Assembly (NCBI GenBank): GCA_020055645.1
Contig: CM034546.1
Location: 89,280,001-89,344,000 of the forward strand
Direction: 5' to 3'
From: Tomocerus qinae
Lineage: Eukaryota > Arthropoda > Collembola > Entomobryomorpha > Tomoceridae
Length of the DNA stretch: 64,000 nucleotides
A program made the position numbers and the translations under genes. This document shows, piece by piece, positions 13,882 to 61,866 of the stretch; position 1 is the first letter of the stretch; each line of letters begins with the position of its first letter. Below the pieces are notes generated by a model. That model searched no databases, was not told the origin of the DNA, and saw nothing but the letters and a program-made list of their open reading frames with translations.

Positions 13882-16119
13882 TTGTTCCATTACGCTAACA
13901 TGTCCGTACAGAAAGGATAGGAGATTTATACTTGCTATCCTTCTAATGCTAACAATGTTTCCATAGGGTTAGATTTGTCGCCAAGTCAGTCTGTGTTAAA
14001 ATTGATTTAAACCTGTGAAAGCTATGTCACAACGTCCTGCCCCGTACGAAAGTCATTTTGGATATGATCTCTAAGCTGTTTCCATAGGGCTGTAAAATAA
14101 CAGATCAAATTGGTCAATCTCCATTTAAGTTTACAAATTTGATCTGTTTTTTATTATGGTTTCACGCAAAGATTGATCGTATCTAATAGCACATAGCATA
14201 GAAAGGATACAGCAAAAAATTTGCACAGGAGGTATCTGTAACCAATACATTTCTATGGTAATTGCCATTTTTCGTCGTTTAACATGTGAAGGTTCTGTCC
14301 GCCCGAACTGGCTCGTGTAAAAGGGATTTGGATATCATCACTAGGCTGTTTTCTGCTGTGTGAAAAACAAGGAAATTTCTAATCCTCTTTCTTGACACGT
14401 TTTCGGCAATTTTGCAGATTTAATAGTTATGCAATGAGTAATGATAATTAAGACTATGAATAGAACAAAACTTGACTAACCGCCGCAGGAGTAATTTCTC
14501 ATTCTTATTATAGTTTACTGCACTACACAATGCACACCCAACACAATTGCTGAAAGTGGAAGATTTCTACAGATTCTCATGAATTCCAAGACCATGCAAA
14601 TATAATATTATTGTGATAATATTATACTATGTACTAGTATGATGATTGGCTACATTTTTATTACTAGTAGGCAAAATTGATGCGAAGGAGGGAATTTTAG
14701 TCCAAGAAATTCAACTATAATATAACTTTCCTGCATTTAATACTTACCACGGTCGACTTCTATTATGCAGTAGTATTAAGAATAAGTAGCATTTAAAACA
14801 AAATTACATTTTGCAATAATAATAATAAGTAATTTAATAGTACTAAGCAAAACCAAATAAAAAGCATGGTGCAAACTTTATCATTATATTTAAAAAATTT
14901 TGAAAACATTTGAAACCATTATTTAGATTTGTCAAAAATGAAAACCAGATTTGTCAAGATTTTTTGGATTGTTTGTAATGTTACTTCATGCTCCTCTTCA
15001 TCCAAAAATATAAAAAAGGCTATTTCTGAGAATGTTTGTCATGCCTTTTAGCAAAATCTTGATATGGTTTTTCATAATTATCAGGATTAAGCCAGTTGTT
15101 CCATGATGTAGTACTAGCTGAAAACCTGCGTGGTCTTAAAATACGCCGGGGACATGGCTGGAGATTTTGTGATGTTGATGCTACAGGATCAATGTTATTT
15201 ATAGTATTGCCTACTTCTTGGGTAGGAGCAACGTCGACTTCTCTTGTTTCATCATCCTCATGTTGGGAGTGTCCTGAACAGTTAGAGTCGGAGTCTGAAT
15301 CTTGAACCTGTATTGTTCAAAATTTTAAAATAATAATACATGCATAAATTGAGTTTCAAATGTCCTCAATTCTATAACTTACTTGAATTACAAATGGTTT
15401 TAAATTTTTCAAATCCAAGAAGCCATCCTGTTTCATGTATTCTTCTTCGTTGCTAAAATAATAGTTTATTTATTTATTCTTTAGCAGATAAAAATAATTT
15501 TTTAATCAAGGACTACCAAATATGTTGAATTAGGAGCCTGAAATGACAGAAAATTGTATAATTGTAAATCCTGCGGCGGTTAATCAAGTTTTGTTCTATT
15601 CATAGTCTTAATTATCATTACTCATTGCATAATTATTAAATCTGCAAAATTGCCGAAAACGTGTCAAGAAAGAGGATTAGAAATTTCCTTGTTTTTCACA
15701 CAGCAGAAAACAGCCTAGTGATGATATCCAAATCCCTTTTACACGAGCCAGTTCGGGCGGACAGAACCTTCACATGTTAAACGACGAAAAATGGCAATTA
15801 CCATAGAAATGTATTGGTTACAGATACCTCCTGTGCAAATTTTTTGCTGTATCCTTTCTATGTAATGTGTCTTTTAGATGGGGATCACCTTTAGATAAAA
15901 GGACAATACAACCCTATGGAAACAGCTTAGAGATCATATCCAAAATGACTTTCGTACGGGGCAGGACGTTGTGACATAGCTTTCACAGGTTTAAATCAAT
16001 TTTAACACAGACTGACTTGGCGACAAATCTAACCCTATGGAAACTTTGTTAGCATTATAAGGATAGCAAGTATAAATCTTCTATCCTTTCTGTACGGACA
16101 TGTTAGCGTAATGGAACAA
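13882..16119. mobile_element. Long-inverted-repeat DNA element (2.24 kb) with TA duplication
   Basis: The outer arms 13882-14089 and 15912-16119 are inverted copies (TTGTTCCATTACGCTAACAT at the tip), and both ends abut a TA dinucleotide (13880-13881, 16120-16121). A second inverted pair, about 14150-14500 and 15560-15905, lies inside the first, so about 550 bp of each side is palindromic. The core (14500-15560) carries two minus-strand exons. The left side has about 60 bp with no counterpart between its arms. TA duplication suggests a Tc1/mariner-like mover, but no such transposase is seen; the superfamily is open. Confidence 0.85.
15020..15452 (-). pseudogene. Two-exon coding fragment inside the long-inverted-repeat element
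   Basis: Minus-strand exons 15383-15452 and 15020-15307 (TAG) are open in one continuous frame with GT-AG borders and give about 118 residues. They comprise an acidic, Asp/Ser-rich stretch (DSDSDSNCSG), a Ser/Thr/Gln linker, a basic block (PRRILRPRRF) and a C-terminal WNNWLNPDNY motif. The first exon needs two bases from an upstream exon that I could not find. It may be the tail of the element's own lost transposase or a captured host gene; I do not recognise the family. Confidence 0.55.
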
Positions 16120-18314: not shown

Positions 18315-19401
18315 CCTTTTCGCTACCACAGAAACTTTAACAAATGCACTACCAGTTCCCAACTAATAAGAGTAAATAGGGATTTCAGTGTCCAGGTAAC
18401 TCATAAGCGTTCATGCTTGACATTCTAATGATTACAGAAATGAGCTACTCATTTATGCCAAGTTTAGAACATTGAAAATTCTCCCCAGCCCGTGTTTTTT
18501 GATTACCTAATATTCCATGATTTAAAAAAATTTAACTTTACATGATTAAAACTAGTTAATTTATCATGTTAAGTTGCGTGAACTATTTAATGCAATTGAC
18601 TTTACACCGCAAATAATTTTAAATTCGTCTAATTATTATTATGACCCTATTTTAATTGAAGAATATTTAATAATGAAAACGCAGTGAAAGCTTGAACTGA
18701 TTTATAGAAACAATTTGTAATTTCCCCCTATATCATACATAAGGAAACTTTTTTCGGAGAAGGCTAGCGCATTAGCGCATGCCTTACCTCGCGCAAAATG
18801 GCACTGGCACAATATCATTATAATAATTACTAGAAAATCCCCAGTAATGCAACGACTCCCAGTAAACTGGTATTGAATTTAAAAATTAGTTATCTGATGT
18901 GCATTGGAAATCTTTCCTACTATAAGATGACAATAACTGTATTAACTAAGTGTGGGGTTATACATTTTGAGTTGTTATACTATTTTGAAATCTTTCCATC
19001 ATATGAAAATATTATAAACTTTAGAAATAGCAGAGTAGACTCGAGAATTTCGTTAGCCGCAGGTACGTATCCAGGAATTTATTCAAGGGAACGCGACGTA
19101 TTTTTTGACATTAATTATTTTTGTCACTGCATATGCGCTGCAAAATTTTGAAATTACATGACAAGCATGTAACGTGTCAGTTGGGCCAAAATTTAAATTA
19201 CATTATTGACATGTAATCGGTCAGGGAATGAAAGTTACATCACTGTCATGTAATCGGGCATGGTGGTTATTCTACAAATTACATTATTGTCATGTAATCG
19301 GTCAGTGAGTGAATTGTTATGATTACATGACAATAATGTAATGGGCCAATGAAAATCATTGCTATGATTACATTACAGTGATGTAATTGGTAGCGAAAAG
19401 G
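18315..19401. mobile_element. piggyBac-like non-autonomous element with TTAA duplication
   Basis: Perfect 13-bp termini CCTTTTCGCTACC (18315-18327) and its inverse (19389-19401) are directly flanked by TTAA on both sides (18311-18314 and 19402-19405). TTAA targets and C-rich tips are diagnostic of the piggyBac superfamily. The 1,087-bp body has no transposase. Its right 250 bp holds a periodic palindrome array (separate entry); the left end has none. Confidence 0.88.
19153..19387. repeat. Six evenly spaced 20-21-bp palindromes (ATTACAT..ATGTAAT)
   Basis: Palindromes begin at 19153, 19197, 19234, 19278, 19322 and 19367, so spacing is 44, 37, 44, 44 and 45 bp. Each is close to ATTACAT, 7 central bases, ATGTAAT; the centres differ and the arms are conserved. 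They sit in the right subterminal part of the piggyBac-like element. The spacing is about four helical turns, so sites would face the same side of the DNA. Confidence 0.88.
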
Positions 19402-19938
19402 TTAAAGCTCCTTGGTGGTACCAGCAGTAATTCAATCCTTTGGATCAAGGATAGTATAGGGGAAGGTTCGGACACTAGCTGTTATTTTTGTCGCCAAGGG
19501 TCACCCGGTGTCACCTCCGAGGAGAGTAGTACGTAATTTCCATGTAAACCCCCTAAGTATGATTTCCGGTGACGTCACTCGAAGTCTATCAATCCCATGT
19601 AAATGGGGTTATCGCACTGGGCTCCATCGCGATGAAAGATGAAAGCGTCAGGCAGAAAAAGTGATTGTATAGCACAGGCAGTTAGCTGCGGCAGCATATT
19701 TTTGTGCTGCAGCTTTTTTTCTTTTACTGCCGCTGTTTTTTGCAGAAACGCGTAAAAACGCGTGAGTGATTCTACTGCGACTGTTTCTGCTGAAGCGGCA
19801 AAAAGTTTTTACGCGCCGACAAAAAACAAGAAGCTTGTCCCGACGAAGCTGAAACTGCTTGTATGTCGCTTTTTTATGATTATCAACATATCAACTACAT
19901 ATCGTCCGTTCTTTTTTGAATTTTCCAGGAGGATCAGA

Positions 19939-21191
19939 ATGGTGAGAATTGTGTCGACACAAATTATTAACTGTTTTATTAACAACTATAATTTCTAAAT
20001 GACCAGAATATACATCTTTTTCTTTTGTATATCGCTAGACACACGAAATTGAGGACAACGACAGTCAGTTTCAAAGCCAGGTCGTCCAGGATTTTGGAAA
20101 CGAAGAGGAAGGAGACAATTCAGTTTTCGAATTAATCCGAAAGGTTGAGAGTCGTCCTTTTATTTACGACTGTCGTGATCCGAGACATAGTAAACGGGAT
20201 GTGATCAGTGACGCCTGGAATGATGTCGCTACTGGACTCAAGTTTGCAAAAAAGGAAGTGAATGGTAAGCGTAAAATATATTATTACAATATACGTAATA
20301 TACTTAATTATAAAATACTATTTGTATCCAATACTAAAATATTGTGTCGACACAGGAGACTATTGCAGAAAGAAGTGGAAGACGTTACGAGATTACTATT
20401 ATAGAGTAAAGAAGATTCTAAAGGGTAAAAGTGGAGACGGAGCTAACAAAAAAGCCATGGCCCTACTATAGCGCCATGGACAGGGTGTTGTCCTCCTGTA
20501 ATGAGGAAAATGAAAAGTGAGAGGAAGTAATATTTGCGAAATTATTATAATGATGGATTTAACCCTATGTATTTAAATTTTTGTTCCAGCACTCAATCAA
20601 ACTTTCCGGGAGACGACTCCATTGTTGACGACAATCAATCCTCAGTTCCCGAGAATTCATCTGATGGAAATTCCGGAAATGGGGTTGTCGATGGAGCAAG
20701 TTACCATGTACGAATATCACCCAATTGCATATATATTATACAAACAATAATTATGGCTACAATAGCAGATAATTTAATCATAATATTTAAATGTCGTTTA
20801 CAGGAAGACGGAGCAAGAATAGAGTCGACTCCTAAATCAACTAGGAAAGTAAGCAAACTAATCAGCAATTAACATTTATAAATTCATTGAAACTAGCATT
20901 TGTTTTACTAATATCTGTTTATTGGATGATTAGGTTGTAAAAAGAAAAGCTGATGCCAACGAAGCAGTACTAAATGAAAAGATACTGAAGGTGCTTGAAG
21001 AACCAGAAGAGGTAAAAGACCAGTTTTACCATTTCGGTATGACAATTTGTAACAGCTTGAGAAACGTACCCTTACAAACTGCTTCGTATGCAATGGTGAG
21101 AATTTCATCCTTGTTATACGAAATAATGTACCCAATGGGTACTTGGGAAAAACAACCTCTCTCCAATGAGTCGACTCAAAATAATCCATAA
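19939..21191 (+). pseudogene. MADF-BESS (Myb/SANT-like) DNA-binding protein of a Harbinger-type locus, one-base frameshift
   Basis: PIF/Harbinger elements usually encode a Myb/MADF-like protein that binds DNA and helps import the transposase. Model: ATG at 19939-19941 on the last bases of exon 1, then 20039-20264, 20356-20516, 20590-20707, 20804-20848, 20934-21191 (TAA). The MADF domain spans exons 2-3 (FELIRKVESRPFIYD; CRKKWKTLRDYYYR; then PWPYYSAM in the +1 frame). The C-terminal exon has a BESS-like helix pair. After a run of six A's near 20447-20453 the frame breaks; dropping one A restores the typical MADF ending and the phase of all later exons. So it is either a freshly broken gene or a homopolymer sequencing error. 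Convergent with the transposase. Confidence 0.8.
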
Positions 21192-21367
21192 TTCCTTAAA
21201 GCTGTACTAGATGTATGAAAATATGGTGTAAAGAATTACAATCTAATAAATAGTATAAAGGAATATACATAAATTTACGTCTTTGTTGCAATTTGTGTTA
21301 TTTACAATTTATTTTACACTCAGTATAGATTAAATGATTTCTGTACACAAATGCTTTCATCGCTATA

Positions 21368-22899
21368 CTAAGCATTTATTTTAGACAGTTGCCAATCCAC
21401 TGCACCCACATCCATAAAATAATTCATCAAATCCTCCCTCATTTTCTTGGAAGCCCTTTCCTGCGCTGCAACCGATATAGGCCTAGCATCAATAAGTCCA
21501 GAAGGAGGGTGTTCATTTCTCCATTCACCATTTGCTTCCATGGAGTCGTCTCCGTACCCAACAGGATTGTAAAACCGTTCAGCAGGTCCATGCTTCATTT
21601 CTTCCTTCTTCAGGAAATTGTGTAACGCAACACAAGCTATAAGATAAAGTAAGATTACATTCCCTTCCAAAATTCGAGAGTCGACTCAAATTGTATAGCT
21701 TACCTAAGACAATGTTTTCAACTTGCTTTGGCTCTGCGGCGATCGGTCTCCGAAAGATTCGCCAACGTGATGCTAGAATGCCAAAAGCATTTTCAATGCA
21801 TCGTCTTGCTCTGGAAAGACGATAATTAAATACTCGCTTCGGAGTATTTAACCCCCTCCCAGGGTAAGGACGCATCAACCTTGTAGATAAAGGAAACGCT
21901 TCATCACCGATAAAACAACATGGCATAGACGTTGTGGTTAAAGGAAGATATCGGGGTCCGCAAGTATTTAAAGTTCCTGCAGCTAATCTCTGTCCTAGGG
22001 TCGACCCTGAGAAAATTCCTCCGTCACTTTGTTTGCCGTAACCTCCTACGTCTATTGATGTAAAGTTGTAGTCCGCATCACACGTGGCAAGCAGAACAAT
22101 ACTAAAAGTTCCTTTGTAGTTAAAATACAGTGATCCGGAATTGGGGGGAGCTTCCATTACTACATGTTTACCATCGATAGACCCAAGACAATTAGGGAAG
22201 TTCCACTTATCGTAGAATCCATCCACGATTTTCCCCCATTCCTCTGTCGAAGGGAACTAAAATAAACATTCAAAATTATTATAAGGTCGACCTTATTTTT
22301 TATTTGATTATTACTTTCACGTAGAGATCCTTTAGCTTTTTCCAAATGACTGGAAGGCCTTCGTGAACAATTTCCCAAACGGTTGTGTAGCCCAAGCTAA
22401 AGCTGGTTGAAATAGACCTGAAGCTGTCACCGGTTGCCAGATACCTACAAATAATAGAAATTCGTATACAATAATTTTAAAATGAACAAATGAACTTAGA
22501 AATGAATTACCTCAAAATAACGTAAAGCCTAATTCGAACCGGTACAGCTTTTCTCCAGTTAGAATCTTTCTTCATTAGGGACGACCCTACTAGAGACAGC
22601 AGCTTCATAAATGTGTTTGGTGACATCCGGGTATAAGCTGCAAAGCGGTCCGGGTACTTTTTAAGCATTTCGTCCAGCTTGATGTGTTCGCCATCAACAC
22701 TTCGATTTTGGAAAATTGGATGGACCCAGTATTTGCGCTTTATGTTTTTCGTAGTTGAGCGTTTCAGCAAAAGCAACTTTAAAATTTTTCTCTTTTTATC
22801 ACTAACCTGTAACTACGTAATAATTATTATTAGGTCGACCTACTCTGTAATGTCAATTATGTTTCAAAAATACTTGTTCAACAAAAAATACATTACCAT
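21368..22899 (-). CDS. PIF/Harbinger-type DDE transposase (DDE_Tnp_4 / HARBI1-like)
   Basis: Cut-and-paste transposase of the IS5/PIF-Harbinger group, also the ancestor of HARBI1. Exons: ATG 22897-22899, 22511-22776, 22315-22444, 21704-22256, 21368-21636 (TAG); all phases fit, 406 residues. The N-terminal part holds an HTH-like region (YTRMSPNTFMKLLSLV; SISTSFSLGYTTVWEIV). The catalytic triad is visible: D161 (GSIDGKHV), D251 (IGDEAFPL) and E288 (RCIENAFGIL), with 36 residues between the last two, typical for the family. The frame is intact, so activity is possible. The first coding exon is the least certain: the only coding content assigned to it is ATG. Introns are 58-120 bp; three of four carry a GTCGAC palindrome. 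Confidence 0.9.
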
Positions 22900-23473
22900 A
22901 TTGAACCAGTTATCTTGTGATTATTAACTTCAATCCCGGTCAAAAGGTTGCAGAGACTCTATTTGCTTTTCTTTTCATCTGGTATAGGCAAAAAGTAAAA
23001 TGATTTTTGCTATAAATTTGTGGCGGATAGTATAAAATATTTCATCTAGGTTTTATCTGATGATACTATTAATGATAATATTATGTATATGATAAACAAG
23101 GCAAATATCAGATCCATGTCCATTTATAGGCTTGTAGTTTATTTTGCATAGAAATTATACTTCATATACATTTACTAATGATAAATATATTAAACACAAA
23201 TTAATCAATTTTATCGGATATCAGTAAACGCTTCCTCGGGCGAGCTAAAGAGGGTCGACCCTATTGAAATCGAGAAAATGCATCCGTAAGGCACCTTGTG
23301 ATTGCTTCGCCTACAAATCAAAAAAGCAATATTTGTTAAATGAATTATTAATTAATTTGACCATAATATATTATATGCATATAGTAATGTCTCACATATG
23401 CACTTCCAGTCTGCTTGGCAATTGGCTTGTTTGTCAGGATGATAGTGCAACAAAGATTTCAATAAATATTTTT

Positions 23474-24446
23474 TTAGGGACGACCCATTGAGCTGCTCAG
23501 CATCGAATGTGAATTTGCATTTTGGGGGTAGTTCTCGTAAACATAGCGAAGGAAGCTTACGGGATCTCTCCTATATTTACAAGGACAATAACATCATTAG
23601 ACTTTAATTATACCAACGTTAAGGGTCGACCCACATAACTGCAAAATTACCTTGCATGCATACGCGCCAAATTGCCCAGTTTTCCATTGACGAAAGACTT
23701 TACTTGCTGCACAAGTTCGTCTCTGCTTTCCTGCAGATCATTAAGTCTGGAGACAAAAATGTCTCCATCAACTATATCCTTGATGCGATTTTGAAACAAA
23801 AACTGCATGAACAACAAAAAAACATTTTGAACAACCATTATTGCTAAATTCAATAATAATCACCTTGTTGAAATATATACCCCTTTCCCATTGTTAACAA
23901 TTTCTCGGATTAGAGGCAAAAGCGAGTCCAGTTCGTTGTTGACTGCCTCCCACTCTATGGGACGACCCAAAATGTCCAAATCTTGTGAAAGATCGTACAA
24001 GGTTTGCAACATGTTGCATGTAGCTGCATTCAATAAGGAGAACTGAAATAATAAATATATAATTCAATTTGTATATCTTTGTGTCGACACAGCAGAACTT
24101 AATATACTTTTTTTATTATATATATATATATATATTTATGATTATTTTGTATGTAAATAGATTTTCTTACGGGTATAGTCTTTCCCTCCTCTTGCCACTT
24201 TCTGTTTTCTTCTTTTCTTTCACGTAATTTTCTCACTTCGTCCGGATGCTCCCGTCGGAATTGTTTCTTTGCTGCGTGCCAATGTTCCAATGAATAATTT
24301 TTAGGTTTTGGGCAATTGGATCGGAAATGGCCGTCTTGACTTCCACAGTTTCCACATTGACTCGATGCTGTAAATATTAATTAGGGATATAATGATTCGG
24401 TATCATAGCTGATTGAGTCGACTCAAATAATTATTTACTTACCCAT
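23474..24446 (-). CDS. Zinc-knuckle / coiled-coil protein, third gene of the Harbinger-type locus
   Basis: I do not recognise this family. Exons: 24443-24446 (ATGG), 24171-24367, 23881-24042, 23651-23802, 23474-23570 (TAA); every phase fits and gives 203 residues. The N-terminus has a CCHC-like knuckle (CGNCGSQDGHFRSNC, one residue longer than the retroviral spacing), then a highly charged Lys/Arg/Glu helix (KLRERKEENRKW), then helical segments (LYDLSQDLDIL; RLNDLQESRDELVQQVKSF). No membrane segment or signal. Like the other two genes, its start codon sits at the very end of a tiny first exon. Two in-frame copies of the GGTCGTCCC motif encode Gly-Arg-Pro, one directly before the stop. It is probably an accessory protein of the element; RNA or DNA binding is an inference from the knuckle. 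Confidence 0.7.
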
Positions 24447-24639
24447 TTTATTACCCTCCTCAGAATACTCTACCGATGACCAGCTTGCTGTTTACCTACA
24501 AAAAGCGGCCGATGTGCGCGTCTATTGTAATTAAAATCAGAATTACTTAATATTTAATGGCTCTTTAAAGCCGGAGAACTATATTGAGTTGGACGGCAAT
24601 GGATGGAATGATCAAAAACTAGAACAGCTGTGTCGACAC

Positions 24640-25283
24640 AATAATTTCGGTAGCAGCTTGCCGCGTTGGGTGATCCCACCTATTCGTAGACGCAGTGTGC
24701 AGCTACTATCTAGCTTTCTGCTGCTTCTTTCTGGCGCAAACTTAAATTTTATGCAATCACGCAGTTTTTTAAGTGGGATCACACAGCGACAGTTAGCGGA
24801 GAAAACGCACGATGGAAAAAGCAAGAAGCTTGCTGTAGGAAGCGAGTTATATGCGTGAAAGGCTTAATGTTCCCACAAACTCTAAAAAACTCTTTTAAAA
24901 AATCGCATTCCAAAAAACGTGAATCAGTTTTAGTTTTTATACAATGTTGATTTTTTGCACCATTTAAAGCAATAATATCAAAAGTCCATCCGCCCTCCTG
25001 TGTTCCTCGATAGTCCAGGATTCCAAAAATGTAAGTCTCATAAAAATCGGCCGTAATCTTCGGGAGGAATAAAGCTTGATGTAAAGCATTTTTTAACACG
25101 CATTTAGATAGGCCCATGCGGTTGCTATGCAGGCGTGATGAGCAACCTTAAGGACATGGTTTCTAAATCATATTCACCAATATTAAATAGCTTGCCATTC
25201 AATCCATTTTAAAAATAATGAGATTTATTTTTTGACATTTACTAAACATATATCAAACAACTGAAGATGCATGTTATTATGGT
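24640..25283. other. Flank of the Harbinger-type locus, no supported gene
   Basis: Contains the inverted pair GTGATCCCACC (24669-24680) and GTGGGATCACA (24773-24783), which could be an internal hairpin or part of the element's end. A 112-codon minus ORF (24779-25117) overlaps it but has no recognised domain, and I do not call it. Confidence 0.4.
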
Positions 25284-25624
25284 TTCACGCAAAGATTGAT
25301 CCTATCTAATAACACATTACATAGAAAGGATACAGCAGAAAATTTGCACAGCAGGTATCTGTAACCAATACATTCCTATGGTAATTGCCATTTTTCGACT
25401 TTTAACATGTGAAGGGTCTGTCCGCCCGAACTGGCTCCGTGGCTCCGTGTGATTTACACGGAGCCAGTTCGGGCGGACAGACCCTTCACATGTTAAAAGT
25501 CGAAAAATGGCAATTACCATAGGAATGTATTGGTTACAGATACCTGCTGTGCAAATTTTCTGCTGTATCCTTTCTATGTAATGTGTCTTTTAGATGGGGA
25601 TCACCTTTAGATAAAAGGACAATA
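25284..25624. mobile_element. Palindromic MITE related to the inner arms of the 13.9-16.1 kb element
   Basis: Arms about 25312-25440 and 25455-25586 are near-identical inverted copies (GGCTCCGT at the centre; CATGTGAAGGGTCTGTCCGC and inverse). The sequence matches 14155-14330 and 15735-15900 of the long-inverted-repeat element, but lacks its outer 208-bp arms and coding core. It has the same CACGCAAAGATTGATC lead-in and AGATGGGGATCACC exit. Confidence 0.85.
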
Positions 25625-25811: not shown

Positions 25812-25932
25812 TAGCAGCTTGACTAAGACCAAGGCGCCAAGACACAGCAATTGGTGGTTTTTATATCTAGGGCCTAGATATAAAAACCACCAATTATTGT
25901 GTCTTGGCGTCTTGGTCTTAGTCAAGCTGCTA
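25812..25932. repeat. 121-bp near-perfect palindrome
   Basis: TAGCAGCTTGACTAAGACCA at the left tip and its inverse at the right tip; the whole stretch folds on a centre near GGGCCTAG with only a few mismatches. No coding content. Confidence 0.88.
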
Positions 25933-36690: not shown

Positions 36691-36899
36691 GAAAAGATGT
36701 TAGAAAATGTAAAGCTGATTATAAATTTGAATATAAATCCAAAATAGATTTATTTCCATCGTTAAATAGTTATTTTCCGGTTTAATTTGCTTTATTATAA
36801 AATCTCAAATTTGGTAAAAGCGGATTGAAATAGTTTATACTATCACGCTAACAATTTATAGGAAACGCCATTGAACTTTTTAATGTCCATTTAATGCCG

Positions 36900-42439: not shown

Positions 42440-44571
42440 TTAAATACAGTGAACTAATGGGATCACTATATATTTTTCATTTCCTTCTGGTACGACGCAC
42501 ATTTTGCACTTAATGTCAACCAAGTTATATTTTGCGATTTTGTCTTTTAACTCTGAAACAGAGTAAATATCTAACTCACTAGATTTAATCGGGCTTTTGT
42601 AACAATCCTTTTTTGTTCCAAACTTTTTTGCCAACAATATAAAATCTGAATTGATCTGCAGAATGTTCACAACTAAAATTATATCTTGTTTTGTAGTTAT
42701 ATAGATGTTGTCTCCATTTTTGCATATAATAGAAAAAAATGGTCCTTCCAACTTATGGTATTGCATTGCGTCACTAATATCTGCCAGTGGACCAGTTACA
42801 TGAAGTTTAGAAGGCTCCCAACTCTCTGTTTGTTTTTTGATTTTGACAATGTCCGTTTTGTTGTCAAAACATGCAAGAATACTTAGTACTACTTGGGATA
42901 AGGGATGATTTGGCTTCCTTAACATGGACTTTAACTTCCCCAAAAACGATTCAAAGGGGTACGCGCTAAAGTTGGAAAGAACACCCCAGTTTCGTACATC
43001 TGTACCTAAGTGTAGCAAGCTGTGTGTGTTGTATACCATGTATTCTAATCCGTAAATCAACCTACCGTCATTGACAAACTTTAACAAAAACTGTTCTGCT
43101 AAATTGAGTTTATTCAGCAACCCGTTGCATGACAAGATGTATATTGCTGTGTGAAGTAATAAAAAATGCTCATAATGTGAACTTGAAATTACATCTTTAA
43201 AGACAACAATACCATAGTAAAGCACCACGTGTTGCCATTCGTGTCCTTTAAATAACTTAAATAATTGGAAACTTCTTGGAGCTCGGTTAAATTCTAATGG
43301 TTTATATTTTGCCGCATGAACCATTTTGTTTGAAGCAATTGTAGCTAACGAACCTTTAACTCGATAGTGTCCTTTTGCTTCATTAAACCACATTTTCACT
43401 AAACGTTTGCATACTCCAAGACAGATTAAATGTAATGAGTCGTGAACAAAGTGGTAAACCATATCAACAAACAATAGTTTTTCAAAAGGCGATTTTCCTT
43501 TGTGATGACTTTCCTGACGTCGTTCCCGAAAATTTTCGTCAGTTCGTAAAATAGACTCTGTATCAGGAAACACTACACTTTTAACGTAGTCTCCTTTTTG
43601 ACAGCAGTAATCGCAGCCATAATAACCACTAAACTGCACAATGTTTTTAACGTAGGCTTTGGCAGGAGCGTCGCACATAATTGGTCCCATCTTTATTTTT
43701 ATATTTTGTCCTCTAAATTCCAACCCACTATTTTTGATGTTATTTAATTCTAATATAAACGGATTGAGAAAACTATCTAAATTGGGTTTCTTATATCCTT
43801 GAAATATAGCTACTGGAAACACTACTGATCGTTGAATATTTGTAGAGCCAAGGATGCACCAAAATTGAGTTTGGTCACTTTTAAATAACGGCAGTCCGTC
43901 AATGTTGAAACGGAGTTCCATTTCTACCGGTAAGACAACCATATCCCGCAACAGGTGTCTTATATTTATTTCCATTCCGAAATAATAATACTGCCCATCA
44001 GAAAATTCCCCTAATTTGACGTCTCTTCTAATTTGAAGTAAAGTTCTTCCATCGGACGGTAAATTCTTCACTCCTCCTTCACGAAGTTTTTTAGCAGTAA
44101 TGTTAACTTGTTTCCTCGAATACCCGTCTCCAAAGCCCATTCCTTAATTTTTTGCGGTATTAGTGAATCAGTATTATCACTATTATCTTCGGTATTTAGA
44201 TTATCATCTTCATTCACTGACTCATTTCCGATGGAGGGTTCAGCATCTGATATGTTATTTGCAAAATTGAAGTCACTTTCACTGCTAAAGTCAGTTAATT
44301 CTTCATCAACGGTAGAAGAGTTTGTTTCAGTTTCAATTCCGGAAAACTGATCTAGTTCACTTTCACTGTATATGGTGGTGTTTGTACAAAAATTTAATTT
44401 TCTGGGCACAAAATTATCATTTCGTGGTTTTGATGGTGTACACTGTATCAATGAGCTGCTTTCTGCCTGAATAGTGTCCATAATGCATTTTACTTCTTTT
44501 GCAATTTTCCTCCGTTTATGGGCTGGAGTTACTGAACAGGGATCATAAAACCGACCGACTCTCTTTCCCAT
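42440..44571 (-). pseudogene. EnSpm/CACTA-like transposase, two overlapping frames
   Basis: Upstream frame 44068-44571 (167 residues: MGKRVGRFYD start, acidic Ser/Asp/Glu domain, then IKEWALETGIRGN). Downstream frame 42440-44140 (566 residues: LPSDGRTLLQIRR; FNIDGLPLFKSDQTQFW; VFPVAIFQGYKKPNL; a zinc-binding CDYCCQKGDY; FVHDSLHLICLGVCKR; TDVRNWGVLSNFSAYPFES). The continuous homology runs from the end of the first frame into the second in the -1 frame at CTAAAAAAC (about 44085-44094), so one protein of about 700 residues is expected. There are no introns. Family assignment rests on the D..PLF and HD.HL signatures typical of CACTA-type proteins; moderate. Confidence 0.7.
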
Positions 44572-45315
44572 TTTATCGAGGGGGACTATTTTAAAATTGA
44601 AAATTACATTTTATTATCATACCAATTATTATTATATATTTGGCGCACTAAATGGAAAATGTACCAATATTCACATCAAATTAATAGATCCTTTTGAACT
44701 TGAGGTTAATTACCAAAAATGTTGTTGCTTAAAAATTAGAAAACCTGAAAACAAACTATTAAAGTGGCGAAAATATCAGGTGACATTAGTTTTCAATTGA
44801 TCACAGACTTGACAGTAAAATTATATTTAAATTAAAGGTAGATAAAATCACAGTACCTTTGAAGTCAACCTAAACCAACCTATCAAAATAAAATAATCAA
44901 ACCTGAAAAAGTTTTCAGTTGTCAAAATTGATAACGTAAATTAACAGCATGCACGATTCAGAAACAACTTGAAATGGCCGATAAATTATGCAAACCGCCA
45001 ACCACAAGGTTGGCTTGCCAGAATCGCATGCGCAACGAAGAATGTTGAGACGTCCGCTACTTAGGATGTAATCTGGATCGTACTTTGATGATGCATAGCG
45101 CAGACTCGCATGAATGATGAGGTGTCCGCTGCGTATGATATAGTTTGGAGGGTACTTGGATGATACACAGCGCAGCATCGCGTCTTGCAATCATTGCTGA
45201 ACATTCAAATGATGTTCCGCTCCCCATCATTGTATGATACAGATGAGGTTCTGATGACACTGATTGTCAAATGATGATCTAATGAACATTATTTGAAGGG
45301 ACGTGGTTTGCTGGG

Positions 45316-59733: not shown

Positions 59734-61866
59734 TTAGAAGACAGGTCCCAATTTCTGGAGGTCCCTGACTGGGAGGGGCCCTTTGTCGACAATAGCATTG
59801 AAGCCATGTACAGGGTCAGCTTGATAGTACACAGTCCTGACACTTCCGTCTGTCTCCACCAATTGGTACTGACCCTTCACTACAGCTCCATCCTATATAA
59901 ATCCGTCCTATGTATTAAAGAATAGCTTAATAATATTAGTATATAGTACCTACCCTCTCTTCGTGTTGGCTGTGGTAGTCTCCTCGATAAGGGTCGTTCA
60001 CAGCGTAGCCAAAGTTGTATCTAGGGTGGGGATCCGCATACGCCACTGCAAAATTAATAATAATAAGAGAGATATAGCATTTCTTCATTTACAGAGTGAT
60101 CTCAATTGTAAACAAACTCGCCGGTAATTAGTTGCGGAAAGGAAATAAAAAAATGCTTAAAGGCAATGATTAGCATGAGAAATAATATAAATGCAAGTTC
60201 CTGTAGAAATGTACATATTTTATGTATGTAGTCTTCATAAACGCATACAGGATAATTAATTATGTCCTCGATATCTGTATACAAATTTCTAAAACATTAG
60301 TCATTGTACTTTGTTCGATCTTGGCAAGTGGTAAGACAAGAACGTGGACTTGAAAAATAGAATTTTTACCAATTGTCAGAAAAAATGAACATGCCATTAA
60401 ACTCAAAGAAAAGCAAACGAGTTGATCTAGCTGCTTATGCTTTATATGTCTATAAAGTACCTATATTAGTATTCGTACATACATTATTGATATATATATT
60501 GATAGTAATGTTTATTATGCATAAGTATATACGAATGTGGACTTTAACTAGTTCTGTAGGTAGGTAAGCAGAGCAGAATTCCTTACAGACAAACATGCAA
60601 TACAACTAAAAATACAGAGAGAAGTGCAGTGGGGTACTATTTATGCGTTACAATTAGATTACAGAGGTATGTAAATACACAAGGGCTGTGTGGGTTGCAT
60701 GTTAACAAGAGTCATAAATGCAGCAGTGAGATCAGATCGTCGATGGGCTGTAGCAATAAGAATAGGCAAGGGGAGATAAAAGGATTGCGACAGTAAACGT
60801 TTGTATAAAGGCAACTTTCATTGCATGTAAATTGTAAAAGATATCAATTATTAATCTGCAAGAAACGTGGCCAGTGCCAAGTGGCCAATAAACAAAACAG
60901 CCACGATTGATCTGAGACAGAGGCAACTAACTCTAAATAATTAATTCAAGGCAGTTAACTTTCCCTCTGTCTCATTAATCAACTCTTGGTAACGTCTCAT
61001 TGAACTGAACACACTTTTTCATGTATTTACCTCAATCTACCCGCACACGGCCACCCATTTCTCCTTTTATGACCTTTACACGCATCTCATCTGATCATAA
61101 CAACCGAAGCAAGGAACTATTCTTGTACTACTAATTACTAATAGCATGTTAATATTTAATAGCCTTCATAGGGTCATTACACTAGTTAAACTTAATTATA
61201 ACTAAAGTTGCTTAATTTTTATGGAAAAATAAACTCTAAACGAAAGAAATTAATCACTAAGGTTTGTTATAATGGTTATAATAATGCATGGCTAAGGTTT
61301 ATAATATTATTACTAAAACTGCTTAATTTTGGATAGAAAAATAATTACAAACGAAAGAAATAAAATAAAATTGTTACCTAAAAGTTCCTTAACGCTGTTC
61401 GTGTGTATTTACAGACACAAAGATTTAAAAGAATTGCAAAGAAGGAGAAAGAATGTTTTACCTTTATGGACACGGCCGTGTGGAATGTATTGACATTGGA
61501 CGACGGCAGCAGCTAACACAACTACAAAAGCGATCTACACAAAACAAAAAAGATGTCTTTATAATAATTTCCTCGTCAAGATTCGTGCATGAACTTTTTC
61601 TTGCATCCCCTTGAAGAAATAAAATCTCAAGTTTCATGCAACTCACAATTGGGCTTTTGTGGAGACAAATTGTTACAAATCATGCCAAATTCCTCCATTA
61701 CCCCACAATTGTAATTCTATTCCGAGTTGGTTAGTATTAATTGAACCCAAAATGTTTTCTTCGTTAATGTGTAATAGTATAATAATAAGTCGAGTGTTGT
61801 GTAAGGAAATATTAAAAGAGAATGAATTTGGAGTGGCAAATGAGTTGTTCTTACCTTGGCGAACAT
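59734..61866 (-). CDS. Cuticular protein with chitin-binding RR-2-like (Rebers-Riddiford) domain
   Basis: Exons 61855-61866 (MFAK), 61462-61534, 59954-60045, 59734-59892 (TAA); phases 0, 1, 0; 111 residues. The signal peptide is split by intron 1 after four residues (MFAK then [14 protein letters not shown]), as in many arthropod cuticular genes. The mature protein has [20 protein letters not shown] and [20 protein letters not shown], the aromatic-spaced chitin-binding Chitin_bind_4 signature closing with HGFNAIV. It is secreted by epidermis into cuticle. It is the strongest arthropod marker in the window. Intron 2 is 1.4 kb, with no gene seen in it. Confidence 0.95.

Follow-up and report, generated by a model that had tools for sequence, protein, structure and literature searches.

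Symmetric GTCGAC-centred sites spread through the body of a three-gene Harbinger-type element in Tomocerus qinae

Why should a DNA transposon carry the same short palindrome at regular intervals through its exons and introns alike? The question is raised by a PIF/Harbinger-type locus of the collembolan Tomocerus qinae (assembly GCA_020055645.1, contig CM034546.1, positions 89,280,001 to 89,344,000), in which an earlier note had described palindromes centred on GTCGAC threaded through three genes. The whole 64-kb stretch (37% G+C), hereafter the window, was analyzed and is numbered from its first letter; all results below concern the one copy of the element that it contains. The observation held as a whole, in the count, symmetry, spacing and placement of the sites, and we consider that these are probably DNA-binding sites of some kind.

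The GTCGAC core starts at 19953, 20346, 20824, 21170, 21680, 22000, 22286, 22834, 23254, 23625, 24083, 24417 and 24632, which reproduces the thirteen palindromes counted before; all 13 have at least two symmetric arm bases per side and so form symmetric sites of at least 10 bp. Six further sites combine a one-base variant core with symmetry of both 2-base arms (GACGAC at 20612, 20627, 22580, 23479 and 23961; GTCGTC at 21545). Five such variants had been reported; the additional one, at 20627, lies 15 bp from that at 20612. GTCGTC at 20081 and 20151 was excluded from the count, with one arm mismatch each. The element contains in total 19 symmetric sites (13 perfect and 6 variant), roughly one per 260 bp.

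Chance was modeled by 5000 dinucleotide-preserving shuffles of positions 19900-24700. The shuffled sequences contained a mean of 0.39 GTCGAC (maximum 5) against the 13 observed, in agreement with the previous estimate of about 0.4. For perfect symmetric 10-mers with a GTCGAC core, the mean was 0.024 (maximum 2) against 13, and for the full set of 19 symmetric sites it was 0.12 (maximum 2). Significance against shuffled sequence, proposed earlier as a check, is thus clear, the excess lying far above the maxima of all 5000 shuffles; together with the synonymous-codon shuffle given below, it rules out a chance origin of the array. The remaining 59,199 bases of the window hold nine GTCGAC, against 4.7 expected (maximum 10 in 200 shuffles). 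The earlier note had put this number at about eight and described them as lacking matching arms, which is true of eight of the nine; the exception is TTGTCGACAA at 59785. Symmetric sites with a GTCGAC, GACGAC or GTCGTC core occur three times in this remainder.

The core itself is specific. With symmetric arms, the element has 13 GTCGAC, 5 GACGAC and 1 GTCGTC, and none of the other 16 one-base cores; its two variant core types compare with ten in the remaining 59 kb. All five GACGAC of the element have symmetric arms, as against 0 of 11 elsewhere in the window.

The extent of the symmetry was assessed in an arm-pairing test on the 13 GTCGAC hexamers, which were picked regardless of their arms. 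Arm position 1 pairs in 13/13 (permutation mean 4.4; 0 of 50,000 permutations), position 2 in 13/13 (p = 0.013) and position 3 in 10/13 (p = 0.02), with only 3/13 at position 4. Pairing ends after arm position 3, and the site is therefore 12 bp long. Over the 19 sites, the base beside the core is T in five, A in six and G in eight, never C, and it pairs within each site; G occupies arm position 2 in 16 of the 19. This varying but paired arm base is the oddest feature of the array, as a loose position in a homodimer site should ignore whether the two halves agree. The arm types are zoned along the element, beginning with T and T, continuing with a stretch of A that contains one T and with eight consecutive G, and ending with T, A and T (runs test, p = 0.0007 for 18 sites and 0.007 for 19).

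Spacing is regular as well. The 18 sites other than 20627 lie 122-420 bp apart, precisely the range given before, with a coefficient of variation of 0.33 (0.25 for the 13 perfect sites), and 0 of 20,000 random placements matched this evenness, for the 18 and for the 13 sites alike. The site at 20627, 15 bp from its neighbour, stands outside this test and would lower the evenness. Helical phasing of the sites was considered and rejected, the score of 0.53 falling short of the random 95th percentile of 0.58.

The three genes were modeled from splice signals and reading frames. Gene A (19939-21191, plus strand) has six exons (19939-19941, 20039-20264, 20356-20516, 20590-20707, 20804-20848 and 20934-21191) and is predicted to encode a MADF DNA-binding protein (PF10545, E = 8.6e-14, 52.1 bits against a cut-off of 22). 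Gene B (21368-22899, minus strand; exons 22899-22897, 22806-22511, 22444-22315, 22256-21704 and 21636-21368) encodes a PIF/Harbinger DDE transposase of the HARBI1 type, 416 amino acids long, in an intact frame whose translation has no internal stop (PF13359 DDE_Tnp_4, E = 1.4e-29, 103.2 bits against a cut-off of 24.8; PF04827, E = 1.4e-9). Gene C (23261-24446, minus strand) encodes a third protein in six exons (24446-24443, 24367-24171, 24042-23881, 23802-23651, 23570-23396 and 23310-23261), with 23353-23395 read as intronic. Its product starts with a CCHC-like CX2CX5HX4C, which exceeds the usual zinc knuckle by one residue, and ends in a J-domain-like piece that carries HPDK; its Pfam matches are all below cut-off (DnaJ, E = 0.003; CorA, E = 0.0022; zf-CCHC_2, E = 0.5), and the predicted structure of the J-like piece, with a mean pLDDT (predicted local distance difference test) of 49, was set aside. 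A gene that combines these two features, both of them weak here, is not known to us from any Harbinger element. Gene A has one frame shift near 20446-20454, in an A run, and this copy or its assembly is therefore broken at that point; gene C has one near 23526-23535. Each lies at a homopolymer run and reflects either decay or sequencing error. A search for relatives of the transposase gave 2 pattern matches in viral contigs and 20 in prokaryote genome contigs, none of them confirmed; phage records gave no match, and solved structures a single one that is not credible (E = 0.51).

The sites are distributed across exons and introns of these genes. In gene A, the perfect site GTGTCGACAC is found in intron 1 (19951-19960) and again at the end of intron 2 (20344-20353), where it adjoins the splice acceptor, with GTGTCGACACAG before the junction and GAG after it. 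The coding sequence of the gene contains the variants GAGACGACTC (20610-20619) and TTGACGACAA (20625-20634) and two perfect copies of GAGTCGACTC (20822-20831 and 21168-21177), the latter close to the stop codon. Gene B has coding sites at 21543-21552 (variant GAGTCGTCTC), 21998-22007 (perfect GGGTCGACCC) and 22578-22587 (variant GGGACGACCC); perfect GAGTCGACTC lies in its fourth and last intron (21678-21687), and perfect AGGTCGACCT in introns 3 (22284-22293) and 1 (22832-22841). Perfect GGGTCGACCC at 23252-23261 overlaps the last base of the gene C stop codon, and the same sequence recurs in intron 4 of that gene (23623-23632); variant GGGACGACCC is coding at 23477-23486 and 23959-23968, perfect GTGTCGACAC occupies intron 2 (24081-24090) and perfect GAGTCGACTC intron 1 (24415-24424). 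The last site, perfect GTGTCGACAC at 24630-24639, is upstream of gene C. In the interval between genes B and C, a 56-bp stretch (22990-23044) recurs inverted at 36826-36881 with 80% identity; it is perhaps a small mobile-element remnant within the largest gap between sites.

Nine sites are consequently in coding exons and eight in introns, with one overlapping the gene C stop by one base and one upstream of that gene. The statement that the sites ignore gene structure proved correct in each of its examples, namely coding exons, the 58-bp and 67-bp introns of the transposase gene (which contain sites 22286 and 21680, respectively) and the splice acceptor. The first exon of each of the three genes contributes no more than ATG or ATGG to the coding sequence, and the intron that follows carries a site. 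Coding sequence makes up about 60% of the span but contains only 3 of the 13 perfect sites. Each of the six non-perfect cores falls within it, and the ten sites outside it are without exception perfect (Fisher p = 0.003; p = 0.0065 when five variants are counted). When codons were shuffled synonymously with the proteins held fixed, a mean of 0.5 coding sites was obtained (maximum 3 in 5000) against the nine observed; the perfect coding sites alone number three, against a maximum of two in 2000 such shuffles. Arm symmetry, the confinement of variants to coding sequence and the synonymous-codon shuffle together support selection on the nucleic acid itself, beyond the protein alone. The selection on DNA sequence that had been suggested before is upheld to that extent; the sites seem to be needed at the level of nucleic acid, the core yielding in protein-coding sequence. 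Codon usage at the sites was discarded as evidence, being circular, as the codon is defined by the site. Synthetic linkers or insertions at the sites are unlikely because the reading frames are not interrupted at any of the nine coding sites.

The stretches that flank the coding region have a different content, GCNGC words and none of the 19 palindromes. A left cluster of seven words (19685-19799) ranks first in density among the 220-bp stretches of the window (mean 0.51); a right cluster of four (24653-24724) is not unusual alone and is equalled in density by parts of the BEL/Pao element at 50.7-52 kb. Weak candidate limits of the element are 19727 and 24792, with TTA on both sides and an inverted-repeat match of 10/12. 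This pair is one of 20 matches of at least 10/12 with a shared 3-mer in the area searched, three of which are better (11/12); it is the best 10-mer match in a narrower search area, and the left GCNGC cluster falls mostly outside it. The founding member of the MADF family, Adf-1, recognises trinucleotide motifs that occur in repeats (PMC11893794), which makes the GCNGC clusters a plausible place for the MADF protein, and Harbinger3_DR has a subterminal 9-bp motif bound by an accessory protein (PMC9710019). By analogy, the clusters could represent the more usual kind of binding place for a Harbinger accessory protein; if the MADF protein does bind at GCNGC, the body palindromes would fall to a different protein or to a second MADF binding mode. 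Immediately to the left of the element, at 19144-19402, related repeats of about 20-40 nt around ATTACAT..ATGTAAT are clustered in both orientations.

The reading that we favor, tentatively and at a little short of an even balance, is that an element-encoded protein binds the palindromes and has a role along the whole body. Each 12-bp site would be bound on the DNA by a dimer of that protein. The most likely candidate is the gene A product with its MADF domain, followed by the gene C product or the transposase; we are less sure of this exact identity than of the reading itself. Occupancy along the body might keep the element open for transcription and transposition, in the way that VANC acts on VANDAL motifs. 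The excess over chance, the symmetry, the core specificity, the restriction of variants to coding sequence, the regular spacing and the presence of a MADF domain all favor this reading. The first interpretation of the locus is supported in part, in its selection on nucleic acid and in its three-gene Harbinger-type locus, which has the DDE_Tnp_4 transposase, the MADF gene and the third gene as claimed. It did not take into account the pairing of variable arms within each site, the VANDAL/VANC precedent or the GCNGC clusters.

Several observations weigh against the favored reading. Sites are absent from the sequence that precedes gene A, from 22842-23251 (upstream of gene B) and from the sequence past 24639, stretches in which sites would be expected because VANC21 also binds terminal and intergenic non-coding regions. 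The protein had been described as MADF-BESS; its MADF domain is confirmed, but the C-terminal 160 residues of gene A gave no Pfam match to the BESS dimerisation domain up to E = 1, the likeness being by eye only. A homodimer that reads its halves independently fails to explain variation between sites combined with pairing within them; an arm base that varies and is always paired needs several binders or a structure. Two of the three genes of this copy are frame-shifted. GTCGTC has symmetric arms in only 1 of 3 occurrences in the element (2 of 13 elsewhere), and the class of variant cores was defined after inspection of the element, in the one copy seen.

Because the arms co-vary, the main rival is an array of stem-loops in RNA (or single-stranded DNA), present in the transcripts of all three genes, each with a short stem closed by G-C and a WCGW tetraloop, and bound by an RNA-binding protein, possibly the CCHC-like gene C product, that controls splicing, export or silencing of the element RNA. 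Arm bases that differ between sites and pair within them (13/13 at position 1, with three pair types) are what a stem would typically show; dyad symmetry of DNA with arms of several types, however, yields the same pattern of covariation. The variant cores alter loop positions only and keep the stem, and RNAfold places a hairpin at the site in all 19 sense-strand 22-mers (-1.0 to -7.0 kcal/mol, energies that stand without a shuffled control), with a loop of exactly WCGW in 17 of the 19; the sites at 20627 and 21680 fold otherwise. All 19 sites are inside a gene model or at most 200 bp from one. Against this, the stems are short and weak, and arm position 2, G in most sites, does not behave as a free stem base. 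No G-U pair occurs at arm positions 1 or 2 in the 13 unfiltered sites, the six variants having been preselected for matching arms. The loop variants on the sense strand are ACGA three times and UCGU three times, so that no loop is specific to an orientation; such strand-symmetric tolerance suits DNA, and we regard the stem-loop array as unlikely. Functionless short local duplications, mutation bias or chance appear very improbable in view of the excess, symmetry and even spacing. The clustering of arm types along the element would fit duplication, the sites at 22286 and 22834 have 19 of 20 bases in common, and the flanks of different sites agree on average at 7.1 of 24 positions, where 6.4 would be random (99th percentile 6.9), in part owing to arm position 3. 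Some sites may be copies of others; copying explains part of the array at most, because the flank similarity is small and the symmetry ends at arm position 3.

Two further possibilities keep the sites as DNA and change the binder or its role. The palindromes could be sites for a host insulator, architectural or activating factor, accumulated to borrow the chromatin machinery of the host, which their distribution through the element body would suit. Clusters of host sites of the gypsy type do exist. In Drosophila, the MADF-BESS protein CP60 belongs to the Su(Hw) insulator complex, which would favor a host factor, and is recruited via CP190 and not by DNA binding (PMC10573801). Outside the element, the 59 kb contain one perfect symmetric 10-mer against 0.4 expected, which is no clear enrichment; the bare hexamer is somewhat over-represented there, and a single window is too small a sample for use by the host to be dismissed. 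We consider a host factor quite unlikely. Alternatively, the sites could serve mainly transposition, with repeated binding of transposase or MADF protein folding the element and bringing its ends together. In Harbinger elements, Myb-like accessory proteins act as DNA-binding partners of the transposase, according to the accessible parts of PMC9710019 and PMC9179366, and this lends the idea some credit; the Harbinger sites named in those parts are terminal or subterminal, whereas here the end stretches hold GCNGC and no palindromes, and a mainly transpositional role seems improbable. The preferred reading remains that of a protein of the element itself bound along its body.

The palindrome-bearing element sits between a Sec23/Sec24-trunk gene and Peptidase_M24 exons, and the window also contains the BEL/Pao retroelement (Peptidase_A17, DUF1759, DUF5641). 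No second copy of the coding region of the element was found within the window by blastn, and Rfam gave 0 matches on the window at gathering scores. A perfect foldback at 25312-25586 has two 130-nt arms, 100% complementary and separated by 15 nt; a diverged relative was recognised by eye at about 14150-14315, with an exact 27-bp match between 25274-25300 and 14151-14177. Another foldback, at 25812-25932, has 60-nt arms that are 95% complementary and separated by 1 nt. On the minus strand, two long overlapping frames of 567 and 180 amino acids at 42443-44610 possibly belong to another mobile element; Pfam gave no match to them at E up to 0.01.

Should the sites prove to be conserved in other copies, this would be a transposon under selection for cis sites along its whole body, exons included. 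The array offers a defined 12-bp probe and three candidate binders, and the varying yet paired arms, a puzzle for simple dimer models, would be informative about recognition either way. To our knowledge, the means by which animal DNA transposons resist silencing are poorly understood.

Among known systems, the locus resembles PIF/Harbinger elements in having both a DDE_Tnp_4 transposase and a separate protein of the Myb/SANT/MADF type, and differs from them in its third gene and in symmetric sites across the whole body. The gypsy Su(Hw) insulator likewise consists of clustered protein-binding sites within a mobile element; unlike the present array, it is a single local cluster, bound by a host zinc-finger protein and not body-wide. 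Known Harbinger elements, as described in the sections of PMC9179366 and PMC9710019 available to us, have two open reading frames (one in Spy) and sites at or near their ends. A body-wide palindrome array in a Harbinger element was not found among the papers listed in the literature searches, which is no proof of absence, subscription papers being mostly outside the search. Sireviruses, plant Ty1/copia elements, have palindromic repeated boxes with a constant CGG-CCG core and added sequence within the symmetry, much as here; in the accessible part of PMC2829016, these boxes are clustered upstream of the promoter or near the envelope gene, and they belong to retrotransposons. The closest working analogy is VANDAL21. 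VANDAL elements are found in Arabidopsis and belong to the Mu-like superfamily. VANDAL21 has the genes VANA, VANB and VANC, and VANC21 binds a 9-base motif within the element, introns included, in vivo and in vitro, upon which the whole element loses methylation (available portions of PMC5735166 and PMC10398659). The likeness is a short motif repeated inside the element and in its introns. A further point against our reading is that the VANC motifs lie in non-coding tandem repeats and are not called palindromic in the accessible text of PMC5735166, whereas here 9 of 19 sites are coding, the sites are 15-420 bp apart and a repeat search found no tandem unit. On account of the coding sites, the palindromy and the lack of tandem repeats, we do not claim membership of the VANC type. 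A more far-reaching proposal, which we hold to be doubtful, is that the transposon writes a self-recognition code in its own body, in which at least three zoned arm types would be read by its own proteins, perhaps that of the third gene. This reading would label the element as self and keep host silencing at bay, and exons would be under both protein and site constraint; the locus would then be an independent animal counterpart of VANDAL/VANC.

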